NCBI GenBank assembly: GCA_018883705.1
Contig: JAHLFQ010000161.1
Coordinates: forward strand, 1 to 34,322
DNA length: 34,322 nt
Origin: Candidatus Cellulosilyticum pullistercoris
Lineage (GTDB): Bacteria > Bacillota > Clostridia > Lachnospirales > Cellulosilyticaceae
Reading direction: 5' to 3'
Of the stretch, positions 4,573-33,301 are shown piece by piece; the first letter of the stretch is position 1; the number at the start of each line of letters is the position of its first letter. The position numbers and the translations under genes are program-made. The notes under the pieces are model-generated. The model was not told where the DNA came from. It saw only the letters and a list, made by a program, of their open reading frames with translations, and searched no databases.

Positions 4573-4574
4573 AT

Positions 4575-5625: not shown

Positions 5626-7014
<1,389 letters not shown>

Positions 7015-10100: not shown

Positions 10101-12276
10101 GCTCTGGAATTTTAGAATCTGGATCTGAAGCTTCTGGATAGCTTCCTTCTTTACTTTCATAAAATCTTACATAGTCCACTTCCATCGCATGTTCCTTACC
10201 ACCTTCAAAAATAGATGAATCTACCTCTAAATTCGTTCCTACACCATCATACCAACCGCCTAATGCTAAATTGAGAATCACATGGAACTTTTTATCAAAA
10301 GGTGCTGGGAAAGCATATTTTTCACCTGTATCTGGATCTACTGTAAACCAGTTATCTTGAGTCTGATAAAGCTTACCATCTACATACCATCTGATTTCAC
10401 CTGGCTGCCACTCTATGCCGTAAGTATGGAAACCATCAATGCTCTCTCCTTCTGGGAAAACATAGTTACTGCCTGACTGAGAGTTATTCGGTGTCTTCTC
10501 TCCATAATGTAACGTTCCCCATACCTGATTAGGCACACTTCCTCTACTTTCCATAATGTCAATTTCTCCAGAACTAGGCCATCCTGTATACTCATCATCT
10601 TCTGGAAGCATCCAAATAGCAGGCCATAGAGACTTGCCTAATGGCAACTTTGCTCTGACTTCTATTTTCCCATATTTTTGAGCATATTTTCCTTTAGAAA
10701 CCATTCTAGCAGAAGTATACTCATGTGTTATACCATCAATCGTTACATCTTCTTTTTTACCAGTAATCGTAAGCACGCCATCAGCTACTGTTGCATTCTT
10801 TGCTTGATAAACTTGTTTTTCCTGATTGAGATTCAAGAAACCATTGTTATAATCCCATTTATTAGAATCTACTTGATTTCCATCAAACTCATCACTCCAA
10901 GCAAGCTGCCACTTCGTTTCATCCACATGATCTCCCGGTTTTTCTTCATTTGGCTTTTCTTCTTCTACCAGTTTGTCTTCGGATGGTGACTCATTTTCTT
11001 CTGGCTTATTAATATTAGGAATCTTATTGGTGTTGACATCAATATTAGATTGAATACCTGGTGCAGTCACTATATCATTAGGTTTGATTTCTGTTTTTAT
11101 ACCTGCTATATTTTCATTCAATCGTTTGATTTCACCCTGTCCTACTATGTTCATAGCTCCATCAGCTACAACTAATTGAATAACAGAGCCTTTTACCATT
11201 TCTATTTGAGCTGGTTTAGCATTTTTATCTTGGGTGGTGTTAGGTAGCGTCACTAATTTATCTGCACTTAAAGTGCTTCCTAATTTTAGTGTGACATTGG
11301 AAGGTACCATAATTTCTGAAAAAGTTCCTTCTAGGGTTACTGTTGAATGATTCTGCAAATGAGTAGATATTTTTTTGCCTGTATTAACAATCCTTACTGG
11401 TTTTGCAACTGCCACACTGATTGGATGATCTAGAGTAATATCCTTACAGTGAATAGAGTTTTCTCCTCCGCCTTCCACAAACACTGTCCCTTTTACAGTA
11501 ATATGATCTAGTGTTACATCTCCACGCCCTATACCTTCTGCTAAATATAAATTACCGGATACCGTCATATCCTGGAGGATAACATCTTTTGTATTGATTA
11601 CTAAATTCCCTTTAACATCCACTTTATAGGTTCCTGCTTCTTGTATAATCGTTGATGTTAAACGATCTATAACCATCATCATTTGTGCTCTCGTTAAATA
11701 TGCTTGAGGTGCAAAGCTCCCATCAGGCATTCCTAACATATAGCCATTTCCTACTAAAGCCTGAACTGATTCTATAGCCCAATCAGATATATCTCCTTGA
11801 TCTTTAAAAGTTTTAGCTTCTGCCTTTGTTAAACTATAAGCTCTAGAAAAAGCATAGGCTAATTCTTCACGGGTAACCGGTTGATCAGGTTTAAATCTTT
11901 CTCCTGTATCCTTCATAAGCCCTGCTGAACTGACATGCTCAATGGCAGAGGCATACCATTTACCTTCATTTACGTCTTCATAACTTTTTGCATATGTACT
12001 ATCTTCTAATTTAAATATGCGATCAATAACTGCTGCAAGCTCTGCTCTTGTTACTTGATTTTGAGGTCTAAAACTATAATCCTCATATCCTGATACAATT
12101 CCATTTTGACTCCATTTATAAATAGCTTCACTATACCAAGCATTTTCTTTTACATCATTAAATATTTTTTCTGTGGTTATAGGTGCCGCAATACCAGTTG
12201 CTTGAATCTGAGATAACATCATCGCAGTTACCAACAAGCTAGTTAATCTTCTCTTACTACTACCCATCTTTCTCAT
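7192..12276 (-). CDS. cell-surface SLH-domain GH16 endo-beta-1,3-glucanase (laminarinase-like) with a beta-helix-like spacer and about six CBM4/9-type modules
   Basis: Signal peptide; three SLH repeats (e.g. FNDVKENAWYSEAIYKWSQNGIVSGYEDYSFRPQNQVTRAELA); spacer VKGNLVINTKDVILQDMTVSGNLYLAEGIGRGDVTLD; GH16 domain at about 10155-10915 with catalytic GEIDIMES and NLALGGWYDG; repeated modules of the form LKNGxF..W.....NPW.I.LSQ.G..L..GK.Y...F.A...(T)I.LDD. Confidence 0.93.
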   Translation of the reverse strand: MRKMGSSKRRLTSLLVTAMMLSQIQATGIAAPITTEKIFNDVKENAWYSEAIYKWSQNGIVSGYEDYSFRPQNQVTRAELAAVIDRIFKLEDSTYAKSYEDVNEGKWYASAIEHVSSAGLMKDTGERFKPDQPVTREELAYAFSRAYSLTKAEAKTFKDQGDISDWAIESVQALVGNGYMLGMPDGSFAPQAYLTRAQMMMVIDRLTSTIIQEAGTYKVDVKGNLVINTKDVILQDMTVSGNLYLAEGIGRGDVTLDHITVKGTVFVEGGGENSIHCKDITLDHPISVAVAKPVRIVNTGKKISTHLQNHSTVTLEGTFSEIMVPSNVTLKLGSTLSADKLVTLPNTTQDKNAKPAQIEMVKGSVIQLVVADGAMNIVGQGEIKRLNENIAGIKTEIKPNDIVTAPGIQSNIDVNTNKIPNINKPEENESPSEDKLVEEEKPNEEKPGDHVDETKWQLAWSDEFDGNQVDSNKWDYNNGFLNLNQEKQVYQAKNATVADGVLTITGKKEDVTIDGITHEYTSARMVSKGKYAQKYGKIEVRAKLPLGKSLWPAIWMLPEDDEYTGWPSSGEIDIMESRGSVPNQVWGTLHYGEKTPNNSQSGSNYVFPEGESIDGFHTYGIEWQPGEIRWYVDGKLYQTQDNWFTVDPDTGEKYAFPAPFDKKFHVILNLALGGWYDGVGTNLEVDSSIFEGGKEHAMEVDYVRFYESKEGSYPEASDPDSKIPELPQDARKPLEDGNLIYDNTYSDYGIQDNKEGDLNFGEGWNLLYKDNFGGKAEAAIELLKDVPFARIKVQDKGNQDYSIQMIEQTTLGRGRTYKLSFDAKAEDDRTIQFKVGGGESRGYAVYSDTYIENISTEIQHIEKTFVMKSSTDTAARLEFNVGLDSNDVWIGNVKLEEVESEPVIEDFNGPKNPLKNGSLIYNGAFDKGKLDRLTYWNLDTQNGGAVTMHVPEATRDLHIQVDAGGRDLSDITLDQRGLKLGENANYTMTFTGKAEKPQSMNVKLLGEDGKTIYAEQRVDLTTTKEKYEFVLQGKGTSTNKGRLVFEMGGVDQSTIILDDVSVVETRQDFSGVNIFPLKNGDFSEDGANWNGLFVEGGVGEVTFEDEAKFFISDIGANPWSVMLSQNDVPFSAGVKYVISFEASSEIPRDMVVKTEQEGTWRAFFEKTVNLTPEKQKYSFEYTMPADGDLDLGLKFLIGKTVDAPIETHTVTIDNIVCEVKDGVLLKSQLKNGQFNDGTNNWSTYVASDQGAEADISVLDEALQMAIKELGSNPWEIQLSQRGIKLEKGKTYEVGFKAQSEAATKLKVSVGHEAADYSYTNYLSNDQFFDITEAEQQHVFRFTMNEATDEDAKLALEAGKQDGAVPTTITLDDIYVTDVPGEEKEESGEDVPTEISNLLQNGNFEDKEDFGWNQYAVKPGEATFTRNDGLQVDIENSGDEAWQITLEQDGLSLKQGKTYVIKFNANVTTASSLRIALQDSSSQEYIGENAQIIHLQQGHNTYEHKFTVTPEVVSDLILKFQMGYDEWTNAYHSGKNQITINDVMLYEEPVKESTEIVVTLDDLVLVEKGTDTNLLKDGDFNAQGAWLIGGGANFKFESTTGAQITITNEGKDPWDVIMYQPNTTLEQGKRYVLSFKGKADRDKKIQMRTSNKSYADYFVKAFDLTTEVQEFNYEFTTNLETSSELEFKIFMGAGI

Positions 12277-12453: not shown

Positions 12454-13227
12454 TTACTTCTGGTCATAAGCTGTTACTCTCATCCAGTCATACTCTGCGA
12501 TAAGTGGCACTGTACCGTCAAAACGACCTAACCAACTGTCTACACCTATACCTGGCCAAGTATTCATCATGACTTTTCCAGGAGTTTTAGGAATATTTTC
12601 TGTGACTTTATAAACTTCTACCCCATCTACATACCATGTAATGGAATCCTTTAACCATTCAAAACCATATTCATGAAATTCTTGCGCTGCATCAAACCCT
12701 AAATCATATATGTATTCGTGTTGTCCAACCCCATCTGTAAAATAATTAAATTGTACCTTGGTTGTGTCTTTACCTAAAAACTCAATATCGATTTCATCCC
12801 AAGGATTTTGATCACTGGGTCCTGTATAAGTAAAGAATGAAGAAACGACCCCTTCATTTTTAATAGGCTTCATACGTACCTCATACATTCCATAATGATA
12901 CATTTGCCTACTTCTATATTCTGCCCCAGACCATGGTGGCTTTGCCTCACCCTCTTCTTTATCAATCTTTAGTTGCATCTTGCTATCTTCAAAAGTTATG
13001 TTGTTTCCTCTCCACGTACAATTAAACATACTTCCATTTGAATAACCATCTGCTTTTTGCATCCACTCATTTTCTGCTTGTTCAAATTCTAATTCTAGTT
13101 TTATTTTACCTTTCAAATCTCTCATCCCTTTTTGTATAATTTGCTCTTCCACATGATTTTTATTTTCATTATTACATCCACAAAGTACTAATCCAACACT
13201 TAATGCCATGAGTAGGCTTTTTTTCAT
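12454..13227 (-). CDS. GH16 lichenase-type (beta-1,3-1,4-glucanase) lipoprotein
   Basis: Lipobox [31 protein letters not shown]; catalytic [53 protein letters not shown]. Confidence 0.92.
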
Positions 13228-13391: not shown

Positions 13392-14678
13392 CTAACGAGC
13401 TACATTTTCAATGAATTGGTCTGAATCTATTTGACCGCTTACAAGCTGTGATAAAGTTTCATAATATATGCTAGAAAAATTTTCATCAAATACTTGATCA
13501 TATGCAGGATGCATTGTCTTATCTTTTGCAATTTGTGCGCACTGATAGAGTGTTGGAAATACTTTTGGATTAACCTTTTGATTTTCATAGGCAGGTAACC
13601 CTATTCCATATTTTTCTATAGCTTTTGTTGAAACTTCTTTTACGATTTCAAAGTAAGCTTCTTGTAAGGACTCATCCTGGGTAATTTGACTTTGTTTATT
13701 AATGACTAAAGTATCTGCATAACCTCCTACTCCTACCGCTTGGGGGATCTCCGGAAAAGATATAATATCTATTTTACCTTTTACTTTAGAATCTGCTCCC
13801 TCTACATTAGCAGCCACCCAACTTCCAGATAATATCATGGCTGCTTTTCCTTGAGAAAAGTCATAGGAAGCATCATAGGAATCATTTTCCAAATAATTTT
13901 TTCCCCATGGTTTAGCTTGTATCAATGCTTCTAACTTCTGAGCAGCATGATAAAACTGTTCTGTTTTGAATAACTGAGGATTTGTTGCTGCTTCATATAC
14001 ACCTTCAATAGTCCCTTCAGTTAATACTAAATTCATATAGTATAAGGAGGTGAGCCATATTTCTTTTGAGCCACTACTCATAGGCGTAATTCCTTTAGCT
14101 TTTAACTGCTCTATAGTTGTTAGTAGTTCTTCGTAAGTATTTGGATATTGTAACTGGGCCTTCTCAAATAATTCTCTATTACAAAATAAAGCTGTGCACC
14201 ACCCATAAACAGGCATCCCATATATTTGTCCATTATAGGTTACGCCATCCATAGCCCCTTGTAGAGGCTTCTCACCGTCATAATATTTCTCCATTGCCTC
14301 ACTGATATCCCATACTAAATCTAAATCTACAAATTTTTTAAGTTTTTCATATCCCCAGAAAAAAAACACATCTGGAAGCTCATTGGTAATAACTGCATTT
14401 TCAATACTTGATTGATAAACCTCATTTTTAAAGGTAGTCACTTCAATCTTAATATCTGTACGTTTACTTTCATAGGTTCTAGCTACTTCATTAAGAATAT
14501 CTTCAATTCCCCCATGAATTGTCCATATCTTAATTGTTTTTACTGGCACCTCTTTATTTCTAGTACTCTTAGTATTTCTAATATCTGAATAAATGACACA
14601 TAGTAATATTCCTAAAATAGATGTTAAACATATGATAATGCCTACAATCACTCTATTTATGAATCTATCATCCCCCAT
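13392..14678 (-). CDS. extracellular solute-binding protein family 1, membrane-anchored (TM, no clear lipobox)
   Basis: N-terminal TM FINRVIVGIIICLTSILGILLCVIY; SBP motifs IKIWTIHGG, DVFFFWG, GQIYGMPVYGWCTALFCNRELFEKA, FSQGKAAMILSGSWVAANV. Confidence 0.87.
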   Translation of the reverse strand: MGDDRFINRVIVGIIICLTSILGILLCVIYSDIRNTKSTRNKEVPVKTIKIWTIHGGIEDILNEVARTYESKRTDIKIEVTTFKNEVYQSSIENAVITNELPDVFFFWGYEKLKKFVDLDLVWDISEAMEKYYDGEKPLQGAMDGVTYNGQIYGMPVYGWCTALFCNRELFEKAQLQYPNTYEELLTTIEQLKAKGITPMSSGSKEIWLTSLYYMNLVLTEGTIEGVYEAATNPQLFKTEQFYHAAQKLEALIQAKPWGKNYLENDSYDASYDFSQGKAAMILSGSWVAANVEGADSKVKGKIDIISFPEIPQAVGVGGYADTLVINKQSQITQDESLQEAYFEIVKEVSTKAIEKYGIGLPAYENQKVNPKVFPTLYQCAQIAKDKTMHPAYDQVFDENFSSIYYETLSQLVSGQIDSDQFIENVAR

Positions 14679-14781: not shown

Positions 14782-15648
14782 CTATGCTTTTACTGCACCA
14801 GCAGTCATACCTCTTATAAATTGTTTTTGTAAACCAAAGAAGATAATAAGTGGTGGTAACGTTGTTACACATCCTGCTGCCATCAATAGATCATATCTAT
14901 TTTGATAGTTTCCTACATATAATCTGATTCCTACTGGAATAGTCGCTACATCTGAAGAAGTAGTCAGTACCCACGCAAACAACAATTCATCCCATGCCAT
15001 AAGGAAAATATAAATTCCTGTAGCAATTAATCCAATCCTAGCGATTGGTAATATAATTCTTATAAATGCTCCAAGTTTACTACATCCATCAATAATAGCC
15101 GCTTCTTCTAGTTCTGTTGGAATACTTGCAAAGAACCCACGTAAAATCCAAATACTAAAAGGAATAAAGAATGCAGAATACACTAAAATTAAAGCACCAT
15201 AGGTATTAATAATTTTAATACCTAACATATCTTGAATTTTAATAAATACTAAATAAAGAGGTAATAAGAACATAATTCCAGGTACCATCTGAGTTGCCAG
15301 TACAGCAGCTCCAAATATATTAGAACCTGGGAATTTAAATCTAGCTGTTGCATATCCTGCAAAGGTTGCTAAAGCTAGAGCTATAGCTGTTGTTGCACTA
15401 CATACAATAATACTATTCTTGAAATATTTAAAGAAATCTACATTCTTCCACATTTCACTATAATTACTAAAGTGACTTGGTGTCCCTAATTTACCTGTTG
15501 CAATATCTCCTTGTGTCATTAATGAAGTAATTGCCATCCATACAATAGGAAATAAAGCTAGTAAAACAAATATCCAAACAACTACTGTTGCTAGAGTGTT
15601 CATTATATCTTTTCTTCGTTTTATTTGAGATAATTTTTGTGTTTTCAT
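14782..15648 (-). CDS. carbohydrate ABC transporter permease (MalG/CUT1 type)
   Basis: Multi-TM; EAA-loop-like ELEEAAIIDGCSKLGAFIRIILPIARIGL; C-terminal LQKQFIRGMTAGAVKA. Overlaps the upstream permease gene by 1 nt (TAATG). Confidence 0.95.
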   Translation of the reverse strand: MKTQKLSQIKRRKDIMNTLATVVVWIFVLLALFPIVWMAITSLMTQGDIATGKLGTPSHFSNYSEMWKNVDFFKYFKNSIIVCSATTAIALALATFAGYATARFKFPGSNIFGAAVLATQMVPGIMFLLPLYLVFIKIQDMLGIKIINTYGALILVYSAFFIPFSIWILRGFFASIPTELEEAAIIDGCSKLGAFIRIILPIARIGLIATGIYIFLMAWDELLFAWVLTTSSDVATIPVGIRLYVGNYQNRYDLLMAAGCVTTLPPLIIFFGLQKQFIRGMTAGAVKA

Positions 15649-16640
15649 TAGTCATTCACCACCAAATCATTTTGGAATATTTTATACCATACGCCCACTA
15701 ATGAGAGGACACAAATCATAACAATAACTGTCGCTGCTGCACCAGCACCAAATTGCCAAATTTGGAAGGAGTTACGATTAATATTAGTCATCAATAAATC
15801 TCCATACTTACCTGGGAATCCTGCACCATGTCCAAACATCATTGCTACAATATTAAACGAATAAATATAGTTGATAATACCATTAAGAATTTGTATAGAT
15901 AAAACAGATCTTAATAGTGGCAAGGTAATATTTCTAAATTGTTGCCATGCATTGGCACCATCTATTTCAGCTGCTTCGTAATAATCAACTGGTATTTGCT
16001 GAAGACCTGCTAAAAGCATCAGCATAACAAATGGAACAGTTCTCCATATAGTTGGAATCATAATAGCAATAAGAACTTTAGGTCCTGTTAGCCAGTAAGT
16101 TTTTTCCGGCATGATATGTAAAACATCTACAATAATTCTATTGATAACGCCATCTTGTTGCCACATAAAGCCCCATAATAAACCAACTACAAAAGATGGT
16201 ACAACCCAAGGAGTCATTAATAACGTTCTAGCAAGCCCTTGGAATCTAAATTTTCTGTTTAAGAGTATTGCTAATAATAGTCCAATGGAAATGACTAAAA
16301 TACTACATGAAACTGAAAAAATAGCGGTATTTCTAAAGGCATCAAGAAATCCTGAACGCATCGTACTATTAGGATCTAAGAGCACTTCTTTATAGTTGTC
16401 AAATCCTATAAAAGGTGCTTTTAAAAATTGATTGAGTGTGAATTGGTTTAATTTTAGAAATGACATACAAATTCCCGATACGATAGGAATTACATGTATA
16501 ATGAGCATGGCTACTAGCGCTGGTGCAATCAGACCATATGCTAGTTTATTTTTTTTGATTTGATACATTAACCCTTTCTTAGGTGTTTTATTGGTATGAG
16601 AAACTTTTTGAACTTTAGTCATATCTTCTCCTCCTGTCAT
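15648..16640 (-). CDS. carbohydrate ABC transporter permease (MalF/CUT1 type)
   Basis: Multi-TM; LIAPALVAMLIIHVIPI; EAA-loop YYEAAEIDGANAWQQFRNITLPLL. Start may be the internal Met at 16622. Confidence 0.95.
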   Translation of the reverse strand: MTGGEDMTKVQKVSHTNKTPKKGLMYQIKKNKLAYGLIAPALVAMLIIHVIPIVSGICMSFLKLNQFTLNQFLKAPFIGFDNYKEVLLDPNSTMRSGFLDAFRNTAIFSVSCSILVISIGLLLAILLNRKFRFQGLARTLLMTPWVVPSFVVGLLWGFMWQQDGVINRIIVDVLHIMPEKTYWLTGPKVLIAIMIPTIWRTVPFVMLMLLAGLQQIPVDYYEAAEIDGANAWQQFRNITLPLLRSVLSIQILNGIINYIYSFNIVAMMFGHGAGFPGKYGDLLMTNINRNSFQIWQFGAGAAATVIVMICVLSLVGVWYKIFQNDLVVND

Positions 16641-16698: not shown

Positions 16699-18096
16699 CT
16701 ATTGTTGACTATAGATTGTTGTACATTCACTAGCTGTTTGATCTAAGAATTCTTGAGTTTTAGCTGGATCATATGGACCAAATACACCCATAATATTATC
16801 CCATACATTACTTAATCCTTTTTGAAGAAGTGTTTCTGATGGACCCCATCCTGCTACAGAAGGATATGCTTTACCATATTGTAATTGTTCTTTGAAAGCT
16901 ACGCGCATTTCTTCGCGTGTTACGAATTCTGTTTCGAAAGCTGCTTTAACAGCTGGTAAGTTTCCACATTTTTCTTGATATGCTATTTGAGCATCTGGAG
17001 TCATTAAATACTCAAGTACTCTATAAGCTGCTTCTTTGTTTTTAGAATTTTTAAATACTGAAAGACCACTACCACCAAAGAATGCATATCTACCTTCAGG
17101 TCCTTCAGGAATTGGAGCTGTGCCAACTTTTTCAGCAAGTTCTGGTTGTTCTTTTCTTAAAGTTGCAATTTCATAAGCTCCTGAGAACATAGATGCAAAT
17201 TCACCTGCATTAAATAATGCTTCAATTTCTGATGAGTTTTTCTCTAAAGCAGGCATACTCATAAGACCTTCTGTTGCAAGTTCTGTGTAGAATTTAACAC
17301 CTTTGAATGCTTCGTCAGAGTTAATTACAGATGTTTTATTATCTTCTGCAATAAAGTCACCACCTGCACCCCAGATCCATGGTGCATAGTTATGAATAAC
17401 GTTCCAGTCATTTTTACCTGGCATACCTAAAGCAGGTACTTTAACACCATCAATTTCTACATCTTTCATCTTAGTAAGAGCTGCTTTGAAGCTGTCCCAT
17501 GTTTCAAAGTCTTTTGTTGGATCAACACCGGCTGCTTCACAAATATCTTTTCTGTAGAATAATGCTCTTGTATCAATAAACCATGGTGCTGCGTATCTTT
17601 CTTCACCTGCACCAAGAATTTGAGTAGTTGGAAGGGTAGCATCTACGAAAGCTGCTTCTCCACCAAATCTTTCATATACAGGTGTTAAGTCTTCTAAAGC
17701 ACCCATGGCTGCAATAGCTGCAATTTGTGTGGTTCCAAGCTGAGTAATATCTGGTCCCTCTCCACTGGTTGCTGCTGTTGTTAGTTTTGTCCAAGCTGAT
17801 CCCCAGTCTAATACAGTTGGCTGTACCTCTATATCTGGATTCGCTTCTAAAAATGGCTCTAACATAGTCATAAAGTCAGCTTCTGCCTCACCACTGTTTG
17901 GCATAATCCACATGGTAACAACTGTTTTATCTCCTGAAGTTGTATCTTTAGCTGCATCCGGACTAGCTGATACAGTTGTTCCAGTTTCTCCTTTACTAGA
18001 TGTTGTAGTGGTTTCTGTACTACCACTTCCACATCCTACTACAGAAGTAGCTGCTAATGTTGTTGCTAAAAGACTAAGTATTAATTTTTTCTTCAT
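16699..18096 (-). CDS. carbohydrate ABC transporter substrate-binding lipoprotein
   Basis: MKKKLILSLLATTLAATSVVGCGSGS lipobox; VVTMWIMPNSGEAE; GRYAFFGGSGLSVFKNSKNKEAAYRVLEYL. SD (GGGTGAG) favours the Met at 18096 over 18105. Confidence 0.94.
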   Translation of the reverse strand: MKKKLILSLLATTLAATSVVGCGSGSTETTTTSSKGETGTTVSASPDAAKDTTSGDKTVVTMWIMPNSGEAEADFMTMLEPFLEANPDIEVQPTVLDWGSAWTKLTTAATSGEGPDITQLGTTQIAAIAAMGALEDLTPVYERFGGEAAFVDATLPTTQILGAGEERYAAPWFIDTRALFYRKDICEAAGVDPTKDFETWDSFKAALTKMKDVEIDGVKVPALGMPGKNDWNVIHNYAPWIWGAGGDFIAEDNKTSVINSDEAFKGVKFYTELATEGLMSMPALEKNSSEIEALFNAGEFASMFSGAYEIATLRKEQPELAEKVGTAPIPEGPEGRYAFFGGSGLSVFKNSKNKEAAYRVLEYLMTPDAQIAYQEKCGNLPAVKAAFETEFVTREEMRVAFKEQLQYGKAYPSVAGWGPSETLLQKGLSNVWDNIMGVFGPYDPAKTQEFLDQTASECTTIYSQQ

Positions 18097-18156
18097 ATAT
18101 CTCACCCTTTTGTTATGTATTTGATAATATAATTATATACTTATATAAAATTATAA

Positions 18157-18225: not shown

Positions 18226-19983
18226 TTAATAAGGTATCTTTAATAGGATTTTTGTATATTCTCCACATCTAGAATCAATTTCTATGACCTCATTTGTATC
18301 TTTTAAATCATAGTAAAGTAATATTCTAGTAATAATTGCCTTCAAACCAAATCCGGATTTTACCTCTAATTTTTCACCAGTTTTAATTTTTTGTATCATT
18401 TCTTCACTTATACCTATGCCATCATCTTCTATTGTAATAAACATCATTTTTTGCTCTTTATTTAGCTTTATAGCAAGATGTACATTAACAGGTTGTCCTA
18501 TTTTTTTTATGCCGTATTTAATACTATTTTCTACTAGCGATTGTAATGTAATCTTAAGAATCTTGTGTTCTAATGCCTCTTCTTCTACATCATAGGTTAT
18601 ATGGATAATATTTGGATTCCTAATAACCGCAATCTTTACATATTCTTTCACAATTTGTAGTTCTTCTTGAATCGTAATAACATCGTCTCCCGTCCCTAAG
18701 CAAGCTCTATAATATTTGGCTAAAGTTTTAATCAGCTCATCAGCTGCTTCCTTTTCTTCTAGAGCAACCATGATACTAGCTGTATTTAGTGTATTATATA
18801 AAAAATGTGGCTTAACCTGATGATTAATAATAGATAATTCTAACCGTTTTTGCATTTTTTCTTTCTCTTTTACTTCACTCACTAATTCTTTGATTTCTTG
18901 CATCATTTCATCTAAGGCATAAGTAATCTCATATACTTCTGTATAACTTGTTGCTATAGTAAAATGAGTGTCTAAATTACCTTGTTTTCCTACCATTCTC
19001 GCTTTATCTGCAATGTGTTTTAACGGGAGAATCACTTTCCTTTTGATGAGTAAAGATGCCCCGCTCAAGAAAATAATATTAACTGTAACTGCAAATAAAA
19101 AAATTGTATTCATATTTGTATTAGCTCTAGCATGGCTGTTAATGCCCATAATCTTACCATTTAATATAGGCATATCTTGTATCACATAATAATACTTTTT
19201 ACTCCCTCTTTTGATATAGTTATATTCCTTATCTTCCCACCTTACGATCTCTTCTATATTGTTTAACTCTATATCCCTAGGTATTTGAAAAGTTTGATCT
19301 AAACTATCTTTAATCCTTACTTTTAAATCAATATTATCCAGCATATCGCGACATGTTTTTTCAAACTCTCTAGGATCTATATAAATGATCAAATAACCCA
19401 ATGACTCTAATTTATCTCTAGAACGTATCATCCTTGCTAAATATAGAGTACTTCCCACTTCTGGTTCTAAGACATTGGTACCTATCCCCCAATATACGCT
19501 TCCTTTCTTTTGCTCTATTAATGATAAATCTAACTGTTCTAAAAAATCTGCTGTATTTTTTAAATAACTAGGTTCCTTAAACTCAGAAATCACATTACCT
19601 TTGCTAGTAATAATATGTATCGATCTTATGCCATCTCTACCCACAAGAGCATCTCTTAATGTCTTATTGACTACTCTCATATTTGTTTCATTTTCTATCG
19701 ATAGTGCCTGCTGAAGAAATGTATTGGTTAATAACTCAGCAGATATTCTCTCATTCTCTTGCATATGCTTAGTTATAAAATAAGATACTGTATTGAGTGC
19801 TTCTTGATCTCCTTTTTTAAGTTTATAATCTACCTCTTTTTGTAACATCAATTGGAATAAAAAAATTCCAAAAAATAAAGAAATACTCATAGTTATAAGA
19901 TAACTTCTAATCAAGATCCAACTTACACTTTTAATATGTATTTTTTGCTTCAAATGTCTATATGGGCTAATCATTAAGCTCAC
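18226..19983 (-). CDS. YesM-type sensor histidine kinase
   Basis: Two TM segments flanking an extracellular domain; His-kinase motif LSIINHQVKPHFLYNTLNTASIM; LQSLVENSIKYGI; ITIEDDGIGIS; SGFGLKAI. Confidence 0.94.
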   Translation of the reverse strand: MSLMISPYRHLKQKIHIKSVSWILIRSYLITMSISLFFGIFLFQLMLQKEVDYKLKKGDQEALNTVSYFITKHMQENERISAELLTNTFLQQALSIENETNMRVVNKTLRDALVGRDGIRSIHIITSKGNVISEFKEPSYLKNTADFLEQLDLSLIEQKKGSVYWGIGTNVLEPEVGSTLYLARMIRSRDKLESLGYLIIYIDPREFEKTCRDMLDNIDLKVRIKDSLDQTFQIPRDIELNNIEEIVRWEDKEYNYIKRGSKKYYYVIQDMPILNGKIMGINSHARANTNMNTIFLFAVTVNIIFLSGASLLIKRKVILPLKHIADKARMVGKQGNLDTHFTIATSYTEVYEITYALDEMMQEIKELVSEVKEKEKMQKRLELSIINHQVKPHFLYNTLNTASIMVALEEKEAADELIKTLAKYYRACLGTGDDVITIQEELQIVKEYVKIAVIRNPNIIHITYDVEEEALEHKILKITLQSLVENSIKYGIKKIGQPVNVHLAIKLNKEQKMMFITIEDDGIGISEEMIQKIKTGEKLEVKSGFGLKAIITRILLYYDLKDTNEVIEIDSRCGEYTKILLKIPY

Positions 19984-21067
19984 CCACCACTTTCTTATAC
20001 TCGTTAGGTGTCATATGAATATACTTCTTAAACAACCTTGTAAAATAAGTGGTATCTGTATACCCCAATAAGTCGCATACTTCATACACCCTTAAATTCT
20101 CTTCTCTTAATAAAAATTGGGCACGTTTCATTTTTATACGCGTTACAAAATGCAGGAAATTTTCTCCTGTTTCATTCTTAAAAAGACTACAAAAATAATT
20201 TTTACTTATAGATAATGTTTCACTTATAGTAGTTAGTGTAATCTCTTCATCTATGTGCTCAACTACATATTGGCAAGCTTGCATTACTACATTATCCTTA
20301 TAGATCACCCGACTTTCTTCCAAAATCTTAAATATTCCTTTTACATTTTTCTCAAATCCCTCTATAAGTTCCTCTTTTATATTCGCTTCTTGCTCTCCAT
20401 AATGAAGATATTGTTCAATATTCTTTAGTTTAGTTAAGTAGATATATTTTTCTTTTACCCTACTTACTAATTCTTCTAATATGTAAGAAAATCTCATACA
20501 CATACTAGAAATATGTCCTTCTCCTAGTTCTCTTTCTTCTTCTACAATCTTCTCTAAAACCTCAAGTGCTTTTGAATTAATTCCCATTATATATTTAATG
20601 AGTAATTTATCATTTTCCCTAGAAAATACCCTCTCTTTACTATTTTCTATTTTTATATCATGTGATTTATATCTATTTTCACTTTCCAACTTTTTCAGTA
20701 GTTTTTCCTTAATCTTATTTAAGGTCTCTATCATCTGCTCTTCCTCTATAGGCTTTAAAAGATAATCTGTTACACCATATTGAATGGCACTTTTAGCATA
20801 CTCAAATTCTCCATATGCAGTTAAAATGACTATTTCTCCTAGATAGCCACTCTTTCTTGCTTCTTTCATTAACTCTATTCCATTCATAATAGGCATTCCT
20901 ATATCCGTAATCATGACATCTATTTTCTGTGTGGCTTGCTGGACTAATGCTTCTTCACCATTTTCTGCTTCACAGACTACCTCAAATCCTAATTCTTCCC
21001 ATCCTATTAGTTTATTTAGCCCTTTTCTTACAATAGGCTCATCATCTACTAATTGTACAGTAAACAT
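19967..21067 (-). CDS. YesN-type response regulator (REC + AraC HTH)
   Basis: MFTVQLVDDEPIVRKGLNKLI, MITDIGMPIMNGIELM, YLLKPI; AraC C-terminus ISKNYFCSLFKNETGENFLHFVTRIKMKRAQFLL...YTDTTYFTRLFKKYIHMTPNEYKK. Start at Met 21067 with a G-rich SD is preferred over 21085. Overlaps the kinase start by 17 bp. Confidence 0.94.
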   Translation of the reverse strand: MFTVQLVDDEPIVRKGLNKLIGWEELGFEVVCEAENGEEALVQQATQKIDVMITDIGMPIMNGIELMKEARKSGYLGEIVILTAYGEFEYAKSAIQYGVTDYLLKPIEEEQMIETLNKIKEKLLKKLESENRYKSHDIKIENSKERVFSRENDKLLIKYIMGINSKALEVLEKIVEEERELGEGHISSMCMRFSYILEELVSRVKEKYIYLTKLKNIEQYLHYGEQEANIKEELIEGFEKNVKGIFKILEESRVIYKDNVVMQACQYVVEHIDEEITLTTISETLSISKNYFCSLFKNETGENFLHFVTRIKMKRAQFLLREENLRVYEVCDLLGYTDTTYFTRLFKKYIHMTPNEYKKVVGELND

Positions 21068-21084: not shown

Positions 21085-21119
21085 ATAATAGGTATTAGAA
21101 TCATTCTAACACCTATTAT
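21085..21119. repeat. 17-bp-arm imperfect dyad at the predicted transcription start of the response regulator gene
   Basis: taataggtattagaatcattctaacacctatta: arms 85-101 and 103-119 pair with one mismatch and a 1-nt centre. Confidence 0.75.
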
Positions 21120-21142
21120 ACAATACAATTATTTATTTTCAA
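21115..21142 (-). promoter_or_regulatory. sigma-A-type promoter for the response regulator/kinase operon
   Basis: Minus strand TTGAAA (-35, 21137-21142), 16-nt spacer, TATAAT (-10, 21115-21120). Confidence 0.6.
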
Positions 21143-21143
21143 A

Positions 21144-21175
21144 AAAAGAGTTGAATTTTATCATTCAACTCTTTT
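21144..21175 (-). terminator. rho-independent terminator downstream of the GH94 pair
   Basis: 12-bp perfect stem aaaagagttgaa / ttcaactctttt (21144-21155 / 21164-21175), then T-run on the minus strand. Confidence 0.85.
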
Positions 21176-21181
21176 AATATA

Positions 21182-23881
21182 CTATATTAAGTGAACATAA
21201 ATAGTATGTTCTACTAATGGGGCAAGTGATTCGATATCTTCTCTCTTAATACTAGATTGATTGATATTATATAACTTATTGCCCATTTCTATCTTATCTA
21301 TAGAATAGGTTCCAACTTGTTTTTTATGTGGATTAGAATAAATGATCTTGAGCTTTTTGCCTGCAAATACTAAATGGATTGTAGCTTTATCATCCTGATT
21401 AAATTGATCTAATAATAGTTTAGGTTCAAAATATAAATCACCTAATTTCCCTTTTATACCAAACATTTCTGTAATGACTGTAAGCATTAACCAACTTGCT
21501 GCCCCTGTTAAATAGTGATACATTCCTCGCCCTTTGCCATTGATATATTCCGGGACCCCAGGAAAAATTCGACTTTTTTCAAAATCACTACAATGTTTAT
21601 ACAGTGTATTAATTACTTTAAAACCTTCATGACTAAATCCTCTTTGATACAATGCATTAGCATACATAGTAGCCATGTGACAAAAAACTGCACCATTTTC
21701 TTTATGCCCATAGGCAAAACCAAACATTCTACCAAGATCTGTTTTTACTTCATTAAAGTTAGTATTTAATTTATAGCCACCTACTGATGGATCATATAGA
21801 TACTGATCTGCTGCTTTAACGATATCTATGACTTGCTGATCGGTAGCAACTTTGTTCATAATAGTAAATACCTGACTTGTAAGCATCATACGTGTTCCTT
21901 TTTCATGATCACCTTCTACTCTTCTTCCATGATTATCATAGTACCCATTATACCAACTGTATCCTGACTGATCTGTAAGCCATTCTTCTTTTCTTATATG
22001 CTGCATCATCCAATCAGCTTTGGCCTCTAAATCTGTTATTAGTGTCTCAAGTTCTATTTCTACCTGATGACCAGTGACTCCATATTTTACCCTCTTACAA
22101 TAAGTTTGCAAAATGGTATTCTTTTTTGAAACATCTTCAAAGACTACTACATCTGTACCCATAAGAAGATTTAATTCTTCCGCTAATGTAACTTTTTCTT
22201 CTTGTTCTTTTTCCTTTAGTATACGTAAAAGATTGGCAATTTCTCTCATATTTCCTGCATAAAGCGCAGAGAAAGCAACACTCTCACCTTTTTCATCTGC
22301 CATATCTAAACCATCATTCCAATCTGCTCCATGCAGCCTTAAATGATTATGTTCTCCTACATCGTAGAAGGCCGTAAGATGCTGTACTAAGAGGTGCTCT
22401 AAAATAGTTCCTTGATAAACCATCTGATTACTTTGTTTAAGAGAATTCCCCTTACTAGGTGACCAGCGCTCATCCTTATCTGTTCCTCTATCTACTTGTA
22501 AATCTTTAAAGTAGTTTTGTTTCTCCAATAAAAATTTAATATCTCCACTTTGTTGAATATAGAGATTGGTGGTTAAGAAAGGCCATGCACCATGATCCAT
22601 CCAAACCCTTGTAATATTATTTCTATCTGCTATAAATTCACCTTGCTTGGTACCTATAATCGTGGCATTGGTACCATCAATACGTACGCCTCCAAAATTA
22701 TCTAATAACATACTTCTTACACCACTTGGATCCATGACCAAAAGTGCTAAGCAATCCTGCCATAAATCTCTCCAACCACGTCCACCTTTTCCATAATCAT
22801 GATGTGGCAAAAAAGAACACCCATAAATTCGTCTTAACATAGGTTGGAAATTCACCCAGTACATCCAGTTATCAAACTCCTCATCCCCTGTTTGATAAGA
22901 CACATTGATTTTCTTATCCCAATAAGCCTGAGTTGTTTTAAGCGCTTCATCTACTGCTACTTCACTTAAATACTTTTTAGCCATTTCCTCAAAATGGTCT
23001 TCATTGTCTCCAAATCCCAAAACAAGTATATAAGCTTTTGATTCTTGTGGTCTGAGTAGCGTTTTTTCAAAAACTACTCCTCCCATAGCTTCATATCCTT
23101 CTAGCTCGGAACCAGCATACACATCAGGTGATTTTTGGCACATAATAGCTTCTGGTACTTCAAAAGAACCTCCCTCACCAATGTAATTCTCTACAATAGG
23201 AAAATAACCTATTGGTTTTTGTCCTTGAGCCTCTGAGCCTGACATCCCATAAACAATTGTATTCTTCTTATGACCTCTTTCATCAAACGTTAAGGTCGGA
23301 TTAACAACGATACTATAATCTGTGGTTTTTATTCTATGTAATAAAGAAGTAACGTGTCTATGATCTCTTAAATTATCAGCTGATCGGGCATATAAAGGAA
23401 TTGCTGCTGTTGGTGAAATGACCATTTCCTCTTCACTTGTATTGATAATCGTTACTTTCATAAGCTCTACTGTATCCTCTGAGGCAGGTACAAAAGAGAT
23501 AATTTCTGATTTTATACCTAGTGCTTTAGACTCTCTAGTCACCTTATGCCACATCACTCCAGCTTCTAATTCTGTTTCTTCTTTTTTATCACTAAATAAC
23601 GCAGCCATAGCCATAGGTGATACACCTGTTGCTGACCAAATCCCTCTACTTTCAATAGTAACCCAGAAATTTCTTGAAGATTTATTATTGTGAAGATCTT
23701 CGCTGCTTACTGGCGCTAATAAAAAGGTATTTTGCCCCATCTTACAGTCTCCATTTAAAAAAGGAGTAACACTTGACATCACACCTTTTTCATTAGCCAA
23801 AGGGAAATAGCTGTAGCTATTTCTCTCTGGATCTATAATTTTAAATGTCCCTTTACGATCTATATATGTATATTTACTCAT
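21182..23881 (-). CDS. GH94 glycoside phosphorylase, laminaribiose-phosphorylase-like
   Basis: GRGWRDLWQDCLALLVMDPSGVRSMLLDNFGGVRIDGTNATIIG; catalytic region LHGADWNDGLDMADEKGESV; ENGAVFCHMATMYANALYQRG; LTGAASWLMLTVITEMFG. Start MSKYTYID at 23881 (SD AAAGGTGG) preferred over 23920. Confidence 0.87.
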   Translation of the reverse strand: MSKYTYIDRKGTFKIIDPERNSYSYFPLANEKGVMSSVTPFLNGDCKMGQNTFLLAPVSSEDLHNNKSSRNFWVTIESRGIWSATGVSPMAMAALFSDKKEETELEAGVMWHKVTRESKALGIKSEIISFVPASEDTVELMKVTIINTSEEEMVISPTAAIPLYARSADNLRDHRHVTSLLHRIKTTDYSIVVNPTLTFDERGHKKNTIVYGMSGSEAQGQKPIGYFPIVENYIGEGGSFEVPEAIMCQKSPDVYAGSELEGYEAMGGVVFEKTLLRPQESKAYILVLGFGDNEDHFEEMAKKYLSEVAVDEALKTTQAYWDKKINVSYQTGDEEFDNWMYWVNFQPMLRRIYGCSFLPHHDYGKGGRGWRDLWQDCLALLVMDPSGVRSMLLDNFGGVRIDGTNATIIGTKQGEFIADRNNITRVWMDHGAWPFLTTNLYIQQSGDIKFLLEKQNYFKDLQVDRGTDKDERWSPSKGNSLKQSNQMVYQGTILEHLLVQHLTAFYDVGEHNHLRLHGADWNDGLDMADEKGESVAFSALYAGNMREIANLLRILKEKEQEEKVTLAEELNLLMGTDVVVFEDVSKKNTILQTYCKRVKYGVTGHQVEIELETLITDLEAKADWMMQHIRKEEWLTDQSGYSWYNGYYDNHGRRVEGDHEKGTRMMLTSQVFTIMNKVATDQQVIDIVKAADQYLYDPSVGGYKLNTNFNEVKTDLGRMFGFAYGHKENGAVFCHMATMYANALYQRGFSHEGFKVINTLYKHCSDFEKSRIFPGVPEYINGKGRGMYHYLTGAASWLMLTVITEMFGIKGKLGDLYFEPKLLLDQFNQDDKATIHLVFAGKKLKIIYSNPHKKQVGTYSIDKIEMGNKLYNINQSSIKREDIESLAPLVEHTIYVHLI

Positions 23882-23909
23882 CGTTTTAAACCACCTTTTC
23901 TTCAGCTTT

Positions 23910-26837
23910 TTATGCTCCAAAAGTAAGTGTTATTTGATGCACCCTACCATCATCTACTAATGAAATCTTATGATCTGACACTTGTTTTCCATCTACTATA
24001 ATGCTGCAGTTTTGATCTTTCATTCTTGATAAACCTATTGGTTTATGGATTTCAATGACATACTTAGATGTGAAGTGTCTTAATGTATAACTTACTTGTG
24101 TCATCTCTTCATCTAATAGTGGCTCAATAACAAGTAAATCTTTCTCATATTTAATTCCTAACATTTCAAACAGGGTAATAGCAAGCCAAGTTGAAGTACC
24201 ACTTAAAGTAGGTCCAATATTTTCACCTGTTAAACTATTATTGTATTGTGTACACCAGCGTGGATTACCACATACTTCAAATGGATTTTCTAAAGCTTTG
24301 TAAGGTAGCACAAGGCCTACCATCCAATACGCTAAATGAGTTAATCTACTAGCTAATGCCTTATCCTCTACTCTCTTAGCTGCTTGAAGCATAGCTGCTG
24401 TTGCCATCATTGTTGCATGCTTAAAGATACCCCCATTTTCTCTATCCCCAGGGAAATACTCTCCTGTAGCTGTTCCTTTTGCAACTTTTGATAAGTCAGT
24501 CGGACTCATTAATTTTAATCCATAAGGTGTTTTTAAATACTGTTCAATTTGATCTAACATCTTACCAATCTGCTTTTCATTAGCACAAGAAGAAAGAATA
24601 GACCAACTGAAAGAATTTAAGAAGTATGTACCATCTACATTTGGATCTGCAGAGAAACCATCGTTTTTTGCACCTAAGAAAGTGATTTCTTCACCAAATC
24701 TATTAAACAGTACTCTTGCAAAGAAATTTTCTTTCCATGCGTGTTTTTGAATATTATCATCCAGTTGCTTGATTAAATCTTTTGTATGTTGCTCATAGTC
24801 TTGATCTTTATGAATACTTGAAAACTCTTTCATATGTTGTAAGGCTAATTTCAGTAAGAATGCATTCATTACACTTTCTGAATAACCTTTAAGTGGTTTG
24901 TCTTGTCTTTCTTTTTCTGGACCTGATACATAATGAGCATCTACTTTTAAGCAGTCATTCCAATCAGCAAAATCAATAAGTGGTAATCCATGTTCACCTA
25001 TAGAGCGCTCTGCTGAATAAGTAATAATTGCTTTTAAAGTTTCATAAACACTTCTTGTCTTTCCGTCTGTTCCTGCTATTTCATACACTTCATCTAGGAA
25101 GCTAAAATCTCCACTATAACTGACATAGCGATAGACTGCTTGAAGCAACCATAAACCATCATCTGACCATTTGCCTGGTTCTTTACCTTGCCAGAAGAAA
25201 TTATGATAGCAGTATCCATAATCAAATACTTTTTCAATCCATTCCCTGAGTAATGATTTTGTATACTCTATCTCACCCATAGAAATAAGGTAATATTGTG
25301 ATACAAAAATATCTTGAATTTCTCTAAACCCAATTTCTCTATAACCTTTTTGAGTTAAATCAAACGAACGAGAAACAAAAGTCTGATAAAGTACTTGGAA
25401 AGGTAGATTTTTGTTCACATAGCTATCAAAAGCTGTATCTCCTGTATGAACTTGTAAGTATGTACTATATTTTTTATAGCTTTCTAATTGTTCATTTAAG
25501 CTTCTTACCACACTTTCTGGTGACTCAAATTGACGATGTAAATTAAGAAGTTGAGTATGGATGACTTCATTAGGCACTCTTGTTTCTTTTAGTTCAGAGA
25601 TGAGACCTATAAAGTGATCCACATAAGTGGTTTCCCCTGCTTCTACATGAATAGGACATCCTAGTGCAAAAAATCCTGGTCCTTTAGTATTGAGGCGGTT
25701 AGATAATTTAAGGATTCCTTGAGGTTTGTATAAATTACCACTGCCTATAAATTCTCCATAGTGTGTGCATATTTCTGTTGGATATTTTTTTACATTTTTC
25801 TCGTAAGCAACCATGGTAGTATAACGAACGTCTCTACTAGCTGGTTCTGGATAGTAGTAAGGCACATATCCTATGAGGTGCTCTTCCTCATCTTTAATTA
25901 ATTGGGATTGCATAATGACTGTAGAATAAACCACATCTTCCATGAGTGCTCCTGGAGCTGCTGTGGCTAACATACCTGTTGTAACTACTTTTAAATCTCT
26001 ATCTTTGGCTGTTTTATTAATAAGAGTTATTCTTTGAACTTCTGTAGCAATTGGTAAACCTTCGTACTGTGGTACTAGGAAAATAGTTCTTAAAATCTTA
26101 AGCCCACATTTCGTCTCATACTCAATCTCTGTATAGTTTTGTCCATGTCTACACTCTGCACGTTCAATATTAGCATCTAATACATCTGCGGAATAAAAAA
26201 TTTGTTTGCCTTCCTCTACAATATAAAACTGTCTATTGGCAGGAAAACCATTTTCTTCTGGTAGCATATCCCATCTTGTTGCTAATACTTGATTGGCTGC
26301 GTGTGCTCTAAAGCTTCCACCACCCAAACGATCTACCACACTTTTAGGCGTAGACTGGAGTGCTAGATCAAAATTCATACGATCTCCTAAAAGCATATTC
26401 GTATAAAAGTGTGGTCCTGGTACTGGTTTCTTTAAATCAATAACATGTTCTCCCTTTTCATTAATATAGCCTGCCCATCTTTTATAGTCTTCACAAATAG
26501 CCATAATACGTTTTTGAATAGATAAGTCTACGGATTTTTCTGTAACTACCCCATTCATATAATAAAAATAATTCACTTTATTTTCTTCTATACAAAAAAG
26601 ATGAGATGCAGTAGATGATAACTGACTGAAATACATACTTAATTCTTGATCTTTAAATAATTCTTTTAAAGCGGGTACTTTAAATACAAATCCTCCAATC
26701 GCTATAATATGTGTGCTACTAACGTCCATAAACTGACTATCATACACAAGATCCTTATTCATATACTCTTTAAAACATTGATTTAATACCTTTGTTGCTT
26801 CATTTAATGTTTCTCTAGCTAATACATTTTTTAACAT
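23910..26837 (-). CDS. GH94 / clan GH-Q glycoside phosphorylase, second paralogue with unresolved linkage specificity
   Basis: IGFREIQDIFVSQYYLISMG; KWSDDGLWLLQAVYRYVSYSGD; catalytic region IDFADWNDCLKVD; YFPGDRENGGIFKHATMMATAAMLQAA; LSGTSTWLAITLFEMLGI. Confidence 0.88.
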   Translation of the reverse strand: MLKNVLARETLNEATKVLNQCFKEYMNKDLVYDSQFMDVSSTHIIAIGGFVFKVPALKELFKDQELSMYFSQLSSTASHLFCIEENKVNYFYYMNGVVTEKSVDLSIQKRIMAICEDYKRWAGYINEKGEHVIDLKKPVPGPHFYTNMLLGDRMNFDLALQSTPKSVVDRLGGGSFRAHAANQVLATRWDMLPEENGFPANRQFYIVEEGKQIFYSADVLDANIERAECRHGQNYTEIEYETKCGLKILRTIFLVPQYEGLPIATEVQRITLINKTAKDRDLKVVTTGMLATAAPGALMEDVVYSTVIMQSQLIKDEEEHLIGYVPYYYPEPASRDVRYTTMVAYEKNVKKYPTEICTHYGEFIGSGNLYKPQGILKLSNRLNTKGPGFFALGCPIHVEAGETTYVDHFIGLISELKETRVPNEVIHTQLLNLHRQFESPESVVRSLNEQLESYKKYSTYLQVHTGDTAFDSYVNKNLPFQVLYQTFVSRSFDLTQKGYREIGFREIQDIFVSQYYLISMGEIEYTKSLLREWIEKVFDYGYCYHNFFWQGKEPGKWSDDGLWLLQAVYRYVSYSGDFSFLDEVYEIAGTDGKTRSVYETLKAIITYSAERSIGEHGLPLIDFADWNDCLKVDAHYVSGPEKERQDKPLKGYSESVMNAFLLKLALQHMKEFSSIHKDQDYEQHTKDLIKQLDDNIQKHAWKENFFARVLFNRFGEEITFLGAKNDGFSADPNVDGTYFLNSFSWSILSSCANEKQIGKMLDQIEQYLKTPYGLKLMSPTDLSKVAKGTATGEYFPGDRENGGIFKHATMMATAAMLQAAKRVEDKALASRLTHLAYWMVGLVLPYKALENPFEVCGNPRWCTQYNNSLTGENIGPTLSGTSTWLAITLFEMLGIKYEKDLLVIEPLLDEEMTQVSYTLRHFTSKYVIEIHKPIGLSRMKDQNCSIIVDGKQVSDHKISLVDDGRVHQITLTFGA

Positions 26838-26853: not shown

Positions 26854-28641
26854 TCAATCTATCATAAATCTATTAATAATATGATCTAAGGTATGAACTA
26901 CTGTAGATAACGTATGAGTAGCCTTTCCTAGATCATTAATAAGCTCTATCTGCTCATTCATCTCTAATGTAATATCATTTGTTTTCTCACTTACACTATT
27001 GCCTAAAACATGAATAGCATTCATACTTTCCAAAATACTCTCTACACCCTTACTAGATTGAGTGACCGCCATATTCATGTCCTCAAGTCTGGCAATTGTA
27101 GCTTTTAAATTTTCTTCTATTACATTAAATTTATTGAGTGTATCTCCTGCGAATACTTCACTTTGAGTTGCTTCTTGATTCGCTTCATCTACTAATTGAC
27201 CTGTATGACCAATTAAATGTCCCATTTTATCTATGCAGCTATTAATTTCTACTGTAGAATTTCTACTTACATTCGCTAAATTATTAATTTCTTGTGCTAC
27301 CACAGCAAATCCTTTGCCGCTTTCACCCGCTCTTGCTGCTTCGATAGAGGCATTTAAAGCTAATAAGTTGGTTTGTTCACTAATTTGATTGATAATATCT
27401 GTAGATTTACTAACAATAACAGACTCCTGTTTTAATGCACCTATAACCTCTACTACTTCTTCAATGAACTCTCTAATATGCTTCATCTTCTCAATCATTC
27501 TATGTAACATATCAATGCCATTTACAGCTTCTTCTATGATTTCTACTGTAGTACTTGTAATATTTTCTGTAGTCGCACTTGTTTCTTCACTATTACTTGT
27601 TAATTCTTCTGTTACCTTAGTAACCATACTTACTTCTTTTTTCCAAACACGCATTTCCTCTACTACTCCATCTAAATTGTCATTAATACTATCAAAGGCT
27701 TCTTTGGTATGTATTGTTTTATGGTCTAGATGTGTATCTACCTGTTGTAATTCACCAATAGAATTTTTAAGTATCTGCACCATATCCTGTAGTTCTTGAG
27801 CCATCTTTTTTATGCCTTCATCTATCTCATAAACTTCATCTCTAAATAATCTTTTTCTAGATAGACTCTTATCTTTTAAGCTATGGCTTAATTCAAGTTT
27901 AGATATACTGTTAATCTTATCTGTAATATTCTTTAAAGCCATTTTTAAGTTTTTAATATAAATACCAAAAATTATAATAGCTACTATACTTACTATGCTA
28001 ACAACTAATATACTTATTTCTTCTATTTTGTTGAGCGCTTTTATTGTTATGTCTACTTGCTTACTTGTCTTATCTGTGGTTAATTGATCTATATCCTTAA
28101 ATATTTTTTGGATTTGAGCCATATACTCTTGACCATCTTCCACCATAAATACATGAGCCTTATCAAACCGTTTGGCTTCTAGTGCTTCTTGACTTAATGT
28201 ATCGTTTGCTTCGATCACCTCTATTAATTGCTCTACCTTTTGTGTAAGAGTAGGGTCTATTTCTATTAAAGCCTCTTTCATTCCTTCAAGTCTTCCTAAT
28301 TCTTGCTGTATGACTTCATGCTCTTTGTTATACTCTTCTGCATAACGCATAAAATCTTCCCCATAGAATAAAAGAGCGGATTGTAAATTATTAAATCCTC
28401 GCATCGCCTGAGTATATATTTTTTTAATGAGTGTTACTATTTCCTGAGACTCGGCATACTGGCTATACGCATGAACCATGTGATTCATTTGCCGATTATT
28501 AAAAACAAATATACTTATAAAGATGATGAAAATAGATAACATAAATATTGAAAGCTGTTTAGACAAAGATAAAGCAACTTTTCTCTCATTCCCTTGACCG
28601 TTATTGATAGGCCTTGGTTGTTTTTTCATATTATTACGCAT
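26854..28641 (-). CDS. methyl-accepting chemotaxis protein
   Basis: Two TM segments flanking an extracellular helical domain; signalling hairpin [41 protein letters not shown]. Ends 16 bp before the GH94 start. Start may be the internal Met at 28629. Confidence 0.93.
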
Positions 28642-28796: not shown

Positions 28797-28830
28797 AAAA
28801 GCTCACCTTTTATTTTAAGGTTGAGCTTTT
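28797..28830 (-). terminator. rho-independent terminator downstream of the ABC exporter operon
   Basis: aaaagctcacctttt...aaggttgagctttt stem with one bulge, A-tract on the + side equals T-run on the minus strand. Confidence 0.78.
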
Positions 28831-28834
28831 CTAG

Positions 28835-32355: not shown

Positions 32356-32412
32356 ATTGTTATACCTCCTTTTATATTTGCCTTACTTTTTAATAGTTTT
32401 CATCATTATTGT

Positions 32413-32443
32413 ATGTTAAACTATATGGTAACCATATAGTCAA
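32413..32443 (-). promoter_or_regulatory. MerR-type promoter/operator of the ABC exporter genes
   Basis: Minus strand TTGACT - 19 nt - TAACAT. The spacer holds most of a 21-bp palindrome ACTATATGGTtACCATATAGT (32420-32440). Confidence 0.72.
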
Positions 32444-32458
32444 GAGGAGATTCTATTT

Positions 32459-33301
32459 ATGGACAAAAAATTAGAAATCTATTTTACAACAGGTGAGTTT
32501 GCTAAACTTTGCGGAGTAAAAAAGCAGACTTTATTTCATTATGATGAAATCGGTTTATTCTCTCCTGCTATTATTAAAGAAAATGGCTATCGCTATTATT
32601 CTTATCGTCAACTTTATATTTTTACAATGATTCTTACACTTAAAGACCTTCATATGCCTTTAAAGGATATTAAAACCTATCTTGATACACGTACACCAGA
32701 AACTTATATGCAGCTTCTTAAGGAGAAGCTATCTGAAGTAGATATGGCTATAGCAGATCTCATAGCAATAAAAAATCGCCTGACAACAGCTGCCCATCAT
32801 ACAGCATTAGCACTTAATACAGAACACGCCAAACCCATTTTAATAGAACAAGAAGAAGAAGAATATCTTATCGTTAGTTCTGATTTAAGCTCCGCTACAC
32901 ATAAAGAATTCTCAACTTATATGCTAGAATACATTCAGTTTTGTAATAAGTATGCCTTAACGACTCATGATTCACTTGGTACACTCATTAAATTTGAGGA
33001 TATAGCAAATGGACGTCAGGATTGCTTTACAAGTCTCTATGCTAAAATGCATGATACAACCGTCCCATCTGTTATTGTGAAACCTAAGGGCTTATATGCG
33101 ACTGTTTATCACCATGGCACTTTCAAAGGTACATATGAATCATATAACAAGATTCTAGAATTTATTCAAAGAAATCATCTGGAAGTAGGTGAATTCTTTT
33201 ATGAGGATTATTTAATACATGATATTGCCACTTGTAATCCAGATGATTTTGTAACACGTATTATGATACAAGTAAAAGGAATGCCAATACATGAAAAATA
33301 A
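32459..33301 (+). CDS. MerR-family transcriptional regulator with GyrI-like effector-binding domain
   Basis: [49 protein letters not shown]-terminal [26 protein letters not shown] effector-domain pattern. Divergent from the ABC exporter. Confidence 0.93.

Follow-up and report, generated by a model that had tools for sequence, protein, structure and literature searches.

We have identified a tandem pair of predicted GH94 phosphorylases, a cellodextrin phosphorylase (CDP) followed by a laminaribiose phosphorylase (LBP), in a locus of Candidatus Cellulosilyticum pullistercoris that also encodes a lichenase. Both enzyme types are known, whereas their pairing is new. Tandem phosphorylase pairs of the GH94-GH161 kind had already been reported (PMC6484121), and no description of a CDP-LBP tandem, or of a CDP-LBP pair beside a lichenase, was found in the open-licence literature. 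The two cytoplasmic enzymes probably act in succession on imported oligosaccharides of mixed-linkage beta-glucan. The whole stretch of DNA that was analysed, 34,322 nt in length, is referred to here as the window.

Two GH94 open reading frames were confirmed on the minus strand, at 21182-23920 (912 aa when read from a TTG) and 23910-26837 (975 aa), and the motifs quoted for them in a preliminary description (WRDLWQDCLALL, IGFREIQDIFVSQ and IDFADWNDCLKVD) were all located in the pair. That description had presented them as divergent tandem clan GH-Q phosphorylases with overlapping frames. The divergence is upheld, as both match Pfam GH94 and are 24% identical where their catalytic domains align (E 2e-08), but the overlap proved to be an artefact that arose when the first TTG was used as the start. 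An ATG at 23881 lies 28 nt past the CDP stop and follows the Shine-Dalgarno sequence AGGTGG (stop to ATG: TAAAAAGCTGAAGAAAAGGTGGTTTAAAACGATG), and the same order of stop, A/G-rich Shine-Dalgarno sequence (AGGTGG or AGGAGG) and ATG is kept in three relatives of the genus, with spacers of ~30-38 nt. Since this ATG and not the first TTG is the predicted LBP start, CDP and LBP do not overlap, and the LBP proper is read as 899 aa. The two genes are as follows:

21182..23881, minus strand: laminaribiose phosphorylase (GH94, 899 aa), predicted from the 6GGY match and the conserved Shine-Dalgarno sequence and ATG; putatively cytoplasmic
23910..26837, minus strand: cellodextrin phosphorylase (GH94, 975 aa), predicted from the 8H6H match, contact residues and fold model

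The resemblance of the shorter protein to laminaribiose phosphorylases, noted earlier, was borne out. By full-length homology to a characterised LBP, that of Paenibacillus sp. YM1 (PsLBP; 6GGY), the 899-aa protein is a predicted LBP: it scored 1074 bits across residues 21-882, where indels are very rare, while the next best solved structures scored only about 75 bits. Aligned to PsLBP, it displays the WND and WRD motifs and the conserved His, and the near-gapless alignment suggests that the segment of the beta-hairpin gate, which restricts acceptors to glucose, is probably present as well. Its N-terminus carries no signal peptide, on which basis the enzyme is placed in the cytoplasm.

The 975-aa protein is assigned to cellodextrin phosphorylase, a characterised GH94 group, by full-length match, conserved residues and modelled fold. 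It matched the C. thermocellum CDP (CtCDP) from residue 3 to residue 973 of 975, with 1068 bits for 8H6H and 1065 bits for 5NZ7, so that the homology is full-length and includes the CDP N-terminal domain, while the best match outside the CDP group reached 135 bits. A Foldseek search with its AlphaFold2 model (mean pLDDT 75.8; parts of it near the active site are of low confidence) returned CDP structures first (TM 0.85), against 0.57 for LBP and 0.41-0.47 for GH161/GH149. Nine CtCDP residues were checked, comprising contact residues named in PMC5667895 and the phosphate-region histidine H807, which was taken from the GH94 consensus. All nine occur in the window CDP (R500, W626, D628, C629, Y794, E800, F805, H807 and Q864), with Asp628 as the catalytic residue and Trp626 as the platform, and 29 CDPs conserve them, save for a Thr in place of C629 in four.

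The preliminary description had separated this paralogue from the LBP by its motif set and had also raised GH149 and GH161 as relatives. A GH149/GH161-like beta-1,3-oligoglucan phosphorylase would turn the pair into one that degrades beta-1,3-glucans of different length, and tandem GH94-GH161 pairs are common in related genomes and have been described (PMC6484121). The full-length CDP match and the TM-scores of just 0.41-0.47 to GH161/GH149 led us to reject this assignment as extremely improbable. No GH161 or GH149 chain appeared among the PDB sequence matches of either protein. The two enzymes fall into separate GH94 groups, each of them characterised, and not into one clade.

The genes downstream of the pair, on the same strand, provide its context:

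19967..21066, minus strand: AraC-type response regulator (PF00072, HTH_18), ATG about 21066, start taken from sequence
18226..19983, minus strand: sensor histidine kinase (His_kinase/HATPase)
16699..18105, minus strand: solute-binding lipoprotein of a sugar ABC importer (SBP_bac_1, 142 bits)
15648..16640, minus strand: ABC importer permease (BPD_transp_1)
14782..15648, minus strand: ABC importer permease (BPD_transp_1)
13392..14678, minus strand: second solute-binding protein (SBP_bac_1)
12454..13227, minus strand: lichenase (endo-1,3-1,4-beta-glucanase, GH16) with DEIDIEFLG, a lipobox and a lipoprotein-type N-terminus
7192..12276, minus strand: SLH-anchored GH16 (GH16_3-type) laminarinase/1,3(4)-glucanase with SLH, GH16, EIDIME and six CBM4/9 stretches (CBM_4_9)
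5626..6990, minus strand: GH1 beta-glucosidase without signal peptide (NCBIfam BGL equivalog, 559 bits, above cut-off)

The lichenase scored 284 bits against the beta-glucanase 3WVJ and passed, with 354.7, the NCBIfam BglS equivalog cut-off of 300, and the SLH-anchored enzyme scored 165 bits against the laminarinase 4DFS. An 85% identical orthologue of the solute-binding lipoprotein at 16699..18105 occurs in a related locus of the genus (L065). The locus combines an endo-acting 1,3-1,4-glucanase with an importer and with exo-enzymes of the cell interior, a gene content that fits a mixed-linkage glucan utilisation locus. Further along, a GH5 lipoprotein gene lies on the plus strand at 3421-5188, and at its end it overlaps a minus-strand fragment, 216 aa long, of a DDE transposase.

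The established products of the lichenase family are G4G3G and G4G4G3G. In the pathway that we propose, the extracellular lichenase and the wall-anchored GH16 would cut the glucan to these fragments and the ABC importer would take them up, roles suggested by their families. At the non-reducing end, CDP would then use phosphate to release beta-1,4-linked glucose units as glucose-1-phosphate, down to laminaribiose, which LBP would split into glucose-1-phosphate and glucose. Each G4G4G3G would yield three glucose-1-phosphate and one glucose, with one ATP saved per phosphorolysed bond. The physiological substrate, the order of action and a regulation shared with the genes for import and for the glucanases are inferred here.

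The preliminary description had suggested that the pair acts on different chain lengths or on lichenase products with their alternating linkages, the latter as a potentially new specificity. The first parts are plausible, but novelty of specificity is not a necessity. As acceptor, laminaribiose serves CtCDP as efficiently as cellobiose does (kcat/Km 5.3 per s per mM for laminaribiose against 5.5 for cellobiose; PMC7187349), and known CDP chemistry therefore suffices. Because CtCDP glucosylates laminaribiose, its reverse reaction should phosphorolyse G4G3G to laminaribiose, and a beta-1,4-specific GH94 of Blautia does phosphorolyse both G4G3G and G4G4G3G to laminaribiose (PMC10318527). By analogy, the CDP-LBP pair would phosphorolyse every bond of these two oligosaccharides.

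One structural trait sets the CDPs of this genus apart. The loop after the catalytic Asp (CDP residues 628-655; window 24873-24956) was found by alignment to have 27 residues in each of the genus's four CDPs, 31 in a CDP of the same family (L075) and 39-41 in the remaining CDPs compared. Relative to most CDPs the genus thus lacks about 12 residues here, and the long loop of the CtCDP type is absent. The CtCDP loop exceeds that of CBP by 12 residues and contributes to opening the acceptor site (PMC5667895). The long loop is a described structural trait of CtCDP and lies outside the family definition. The shortened loop is shared by the CDP orthologue in genome G001. A C. lentocellum enzyme, ClCDP (Clole_3989), is listed among characterised CDPs (PMC8950772), and ClCDP (ADZ85667) is probably this 82% identical tandem orthologue, the sole CDP-like gene in G001. 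The idea that a short loop goes with an LBP partner was also considered and was rejected, since the LBP-linked CDPs of Clostridium carry the long loop. It seems doubtful that the shortening adapts the genus CDPs to laminaribiose-ended oligosaccharides (G4G3G over cellotriose), making CDP and LBP a co-adapted linkage relay as opposed to two generalists.

Upstream of CDP, and around the pair, the following elements were identified:

26854..28641, minus strand: methyl-accepting chemotaxis protein (MCP), first gene of the unit; signalling-domain matches below NCBIfam equivalog cut-offs
21144..21175, minus strand: predicted intrinsic terminator just after LBP (13-bp hairpin and U tract, -15 kcal/mol, z -5.9)
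21115..21142, minus strand: promoter-like TTGAAA-16-TATAAT before the response regulator gene (11/12 matches; consensus match only)
28797..28834, minus strand: terminator-like hairpin and T run in the gap between the ABC exporter genes and the MCP gene, found by eye

The MCP gene lies 16 nt before CDP. Given the terminator after LBP, the promoter-like site beyond it and the hairpin with T run upstream, MCP, CDP and LBP likely form one predicted three-gene transcription unit. A hairpin followed by T residues also occurs after LBP in two loci of the genus (L065, read by eye; L067, folded). Rfam and tRNA scans gave no matches. The terminator and promoter-like site part the phosphorylase genes from the import and glucanase genes, which counts against the sequential model.

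An MCP gene is directly beside CDP in L065, L076, L077 and L079 as well, and near it in L078 and L087. Leaving out L076, an MCP-linked CDP fragment at a contig end, MCP genes were beside or near CDP in 6/8 LBP-linked loci and in 0/21 other CDP loci, with few independent contrasts, as for the lichenase below. The MCP possibly serves chemotaxis towards beta-glucan oligosaccharides. Beyond it, at 28835-33301, are a pair of genes for half-size ABC exporters and a divergent regulator of the MerR type that includes a GyrI-like domain. This block is conserved in G001 (L066), about 12 kb from the phosphorylase unit, and is for that reason probably unrelated to it.

Three further genomes of the genus have CDP directly next to LBP, with CDP/LBP identities to the window proteins of 82/77% (L065), 70/66% (L067) and 79/73% (L069). 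A sample of 341 genomes of the class, with counts that are limited by contig ends and by flanks of 8-10 kb, contained LBP in 16 genomes and CDP in 22, and the window's own genome was the only one in the sample with the two close together. Named records add four Clostridium-type loci (L077, L078, L079 and L087) with CDP and LBP ~2-6 kb apart, and in two of the four a GH161 gene lies in between; 1046-aa neighbours were assigned to GH161 via 9QQK. The linkage was thus found only in the window's genus and some Clostridium, mostly with a lichenase. AU tests rejected both a single clade of CDP-linked LBPs and a single clade of LBP-linked CDPs, and two gains of the linkage, or one gain with losses, are possible histories. 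In Clostridium sp. C2-6-12 a frameshift or a sequencing error divides LBP into two ORFs (L077:10028-12730). Further phosphorylase pairings were seen at L084:5887-8301 and L086:5176-10045, where CBP-like GH94 genes (two in L086), some only 32-33% identical to CBP, follow LBP.

A lichenase gene was present in 6/8 LBP-linked CDP loci and in 0/21 other CDP loci (Fisher p 6e-5, for loci that are not independent). Seen from LBP, it was present in 5/7 CDP-linked loci and in 1/28 others, the exception being Herbinix (L082). The two linked loci of the eight that have no lichenase nearby are those of G003 (none in the genome) and L087 (none in the flank). The trees allow only two phylogenetically independent contrasts for this association (sign test p 0.5), and we regard the pattern as a lead, short of proof.

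A rather unlikely alternative is that the enzymes have parallel duties, CDP acting on cellodextrins from cellulose and LBP on laminaribiose from beta-1,3-glucan, and share an operon merely as beta-glucan catabolic genes. The SLH-anchored GH16 is of the laminarinase type, and LBP is often near GH161 in other genomes: GH161 lay within about 10 kb of LBP in five of the 15 LBP genomes outside the genus (G110, G178, G266, G317 and G336). The window's genome itself encodes, on another contig (G000:C28:11977-15078; L107:7975-12502), a GH161 phosphorylase followed by a GH1 that is 80% identical to the window GH1. These two likely form a separate beta-1,3-glucan route, which LBP could mainly serve. Parallel duties accord less well with the partner that CDP has elsewhere, which is mostly CBP and not LBP (adjoining in 13/20 class loci outside the genus), with the lichenase in most CDP-LBP loci, and with the chemistry, as the expected CDP product on G4G3G is exactly the LBP substrate. 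CBP was not found in the window's genome, whose assembly is 85% complete.

A further point against the sequential model is that the GH1 at 5626-6990 could hydrolyse laminaribiose. Were this its main fate, LBP would have a minor or salvage role, for instance in making laminaribiose as an inducer, and laminaribiose is a reported inducer of the celC operon of C. thermocellum (discussed in PMC5733062). LBP is nevertheless kept beside CDP and is highly conserved in three further species, and we consider this reading very unlikely.

Sequential action of CDP and LBP suggests a route by which some cellulolytic Clostridia could conserve ATP on mixed-linkage glucan, the last bond included. The glucan concerned is cereal or lichen beta-glucan, and imported fragments could be finished one bond type after another, saving energy. 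The disaccharide phosphorylase found beside an oligosaccharide phosphorylase (CBP; LBP with GH161; LBP with CDP) may indicate the glucan that a locus serves, and the enzyme pair would be usable for making or analysing defined 1,3-1,4 oligosaccharides.

Compared with the GH94 LBPs PsLBP (6GGY) and ACL0729 of Acholeplasma laidlawii, the window LBP has the same motifs and His and aligns to PsLBP full-length and near-gapless, but its partner is CDP instead of GH161. The window CDP resembles CtCDP (5NZ7, 8H6H) over its full length, including the N-terminal domain, the general acid Asp and the nine contact residues; it differs from CtCDP and most CDPs in its loop (27 versus 39-41 residues) and in having LBP and not CBP as its neighbour. 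The tandem GH94-GH161 loci (PMC6484121) likewise combine an oligosaccharide phosphorylase and a disaccharide phosphorylase with an ABC importer that lacks its own ATPase gene, whereas the oligosaccharide enzyme here is a predicted beta-1,4-specific CDP, which would suit mixed-linkage glucan and not beta-1,3-glucan. The mixed-linkage locus of Blautia producta (PMC10318527) has in common with the window a GH16-CBM4 glucanase, an ABC importer, an AraC-type regulator and GH94. Its single GH94 is of another subgroup (23% identical to RtCDP), and GH3 glucosidases finish the degradation (PMC10318527), while the window has a putative LBP dedicated to laminaribiose, together with a lichenase and an SLH anchor.
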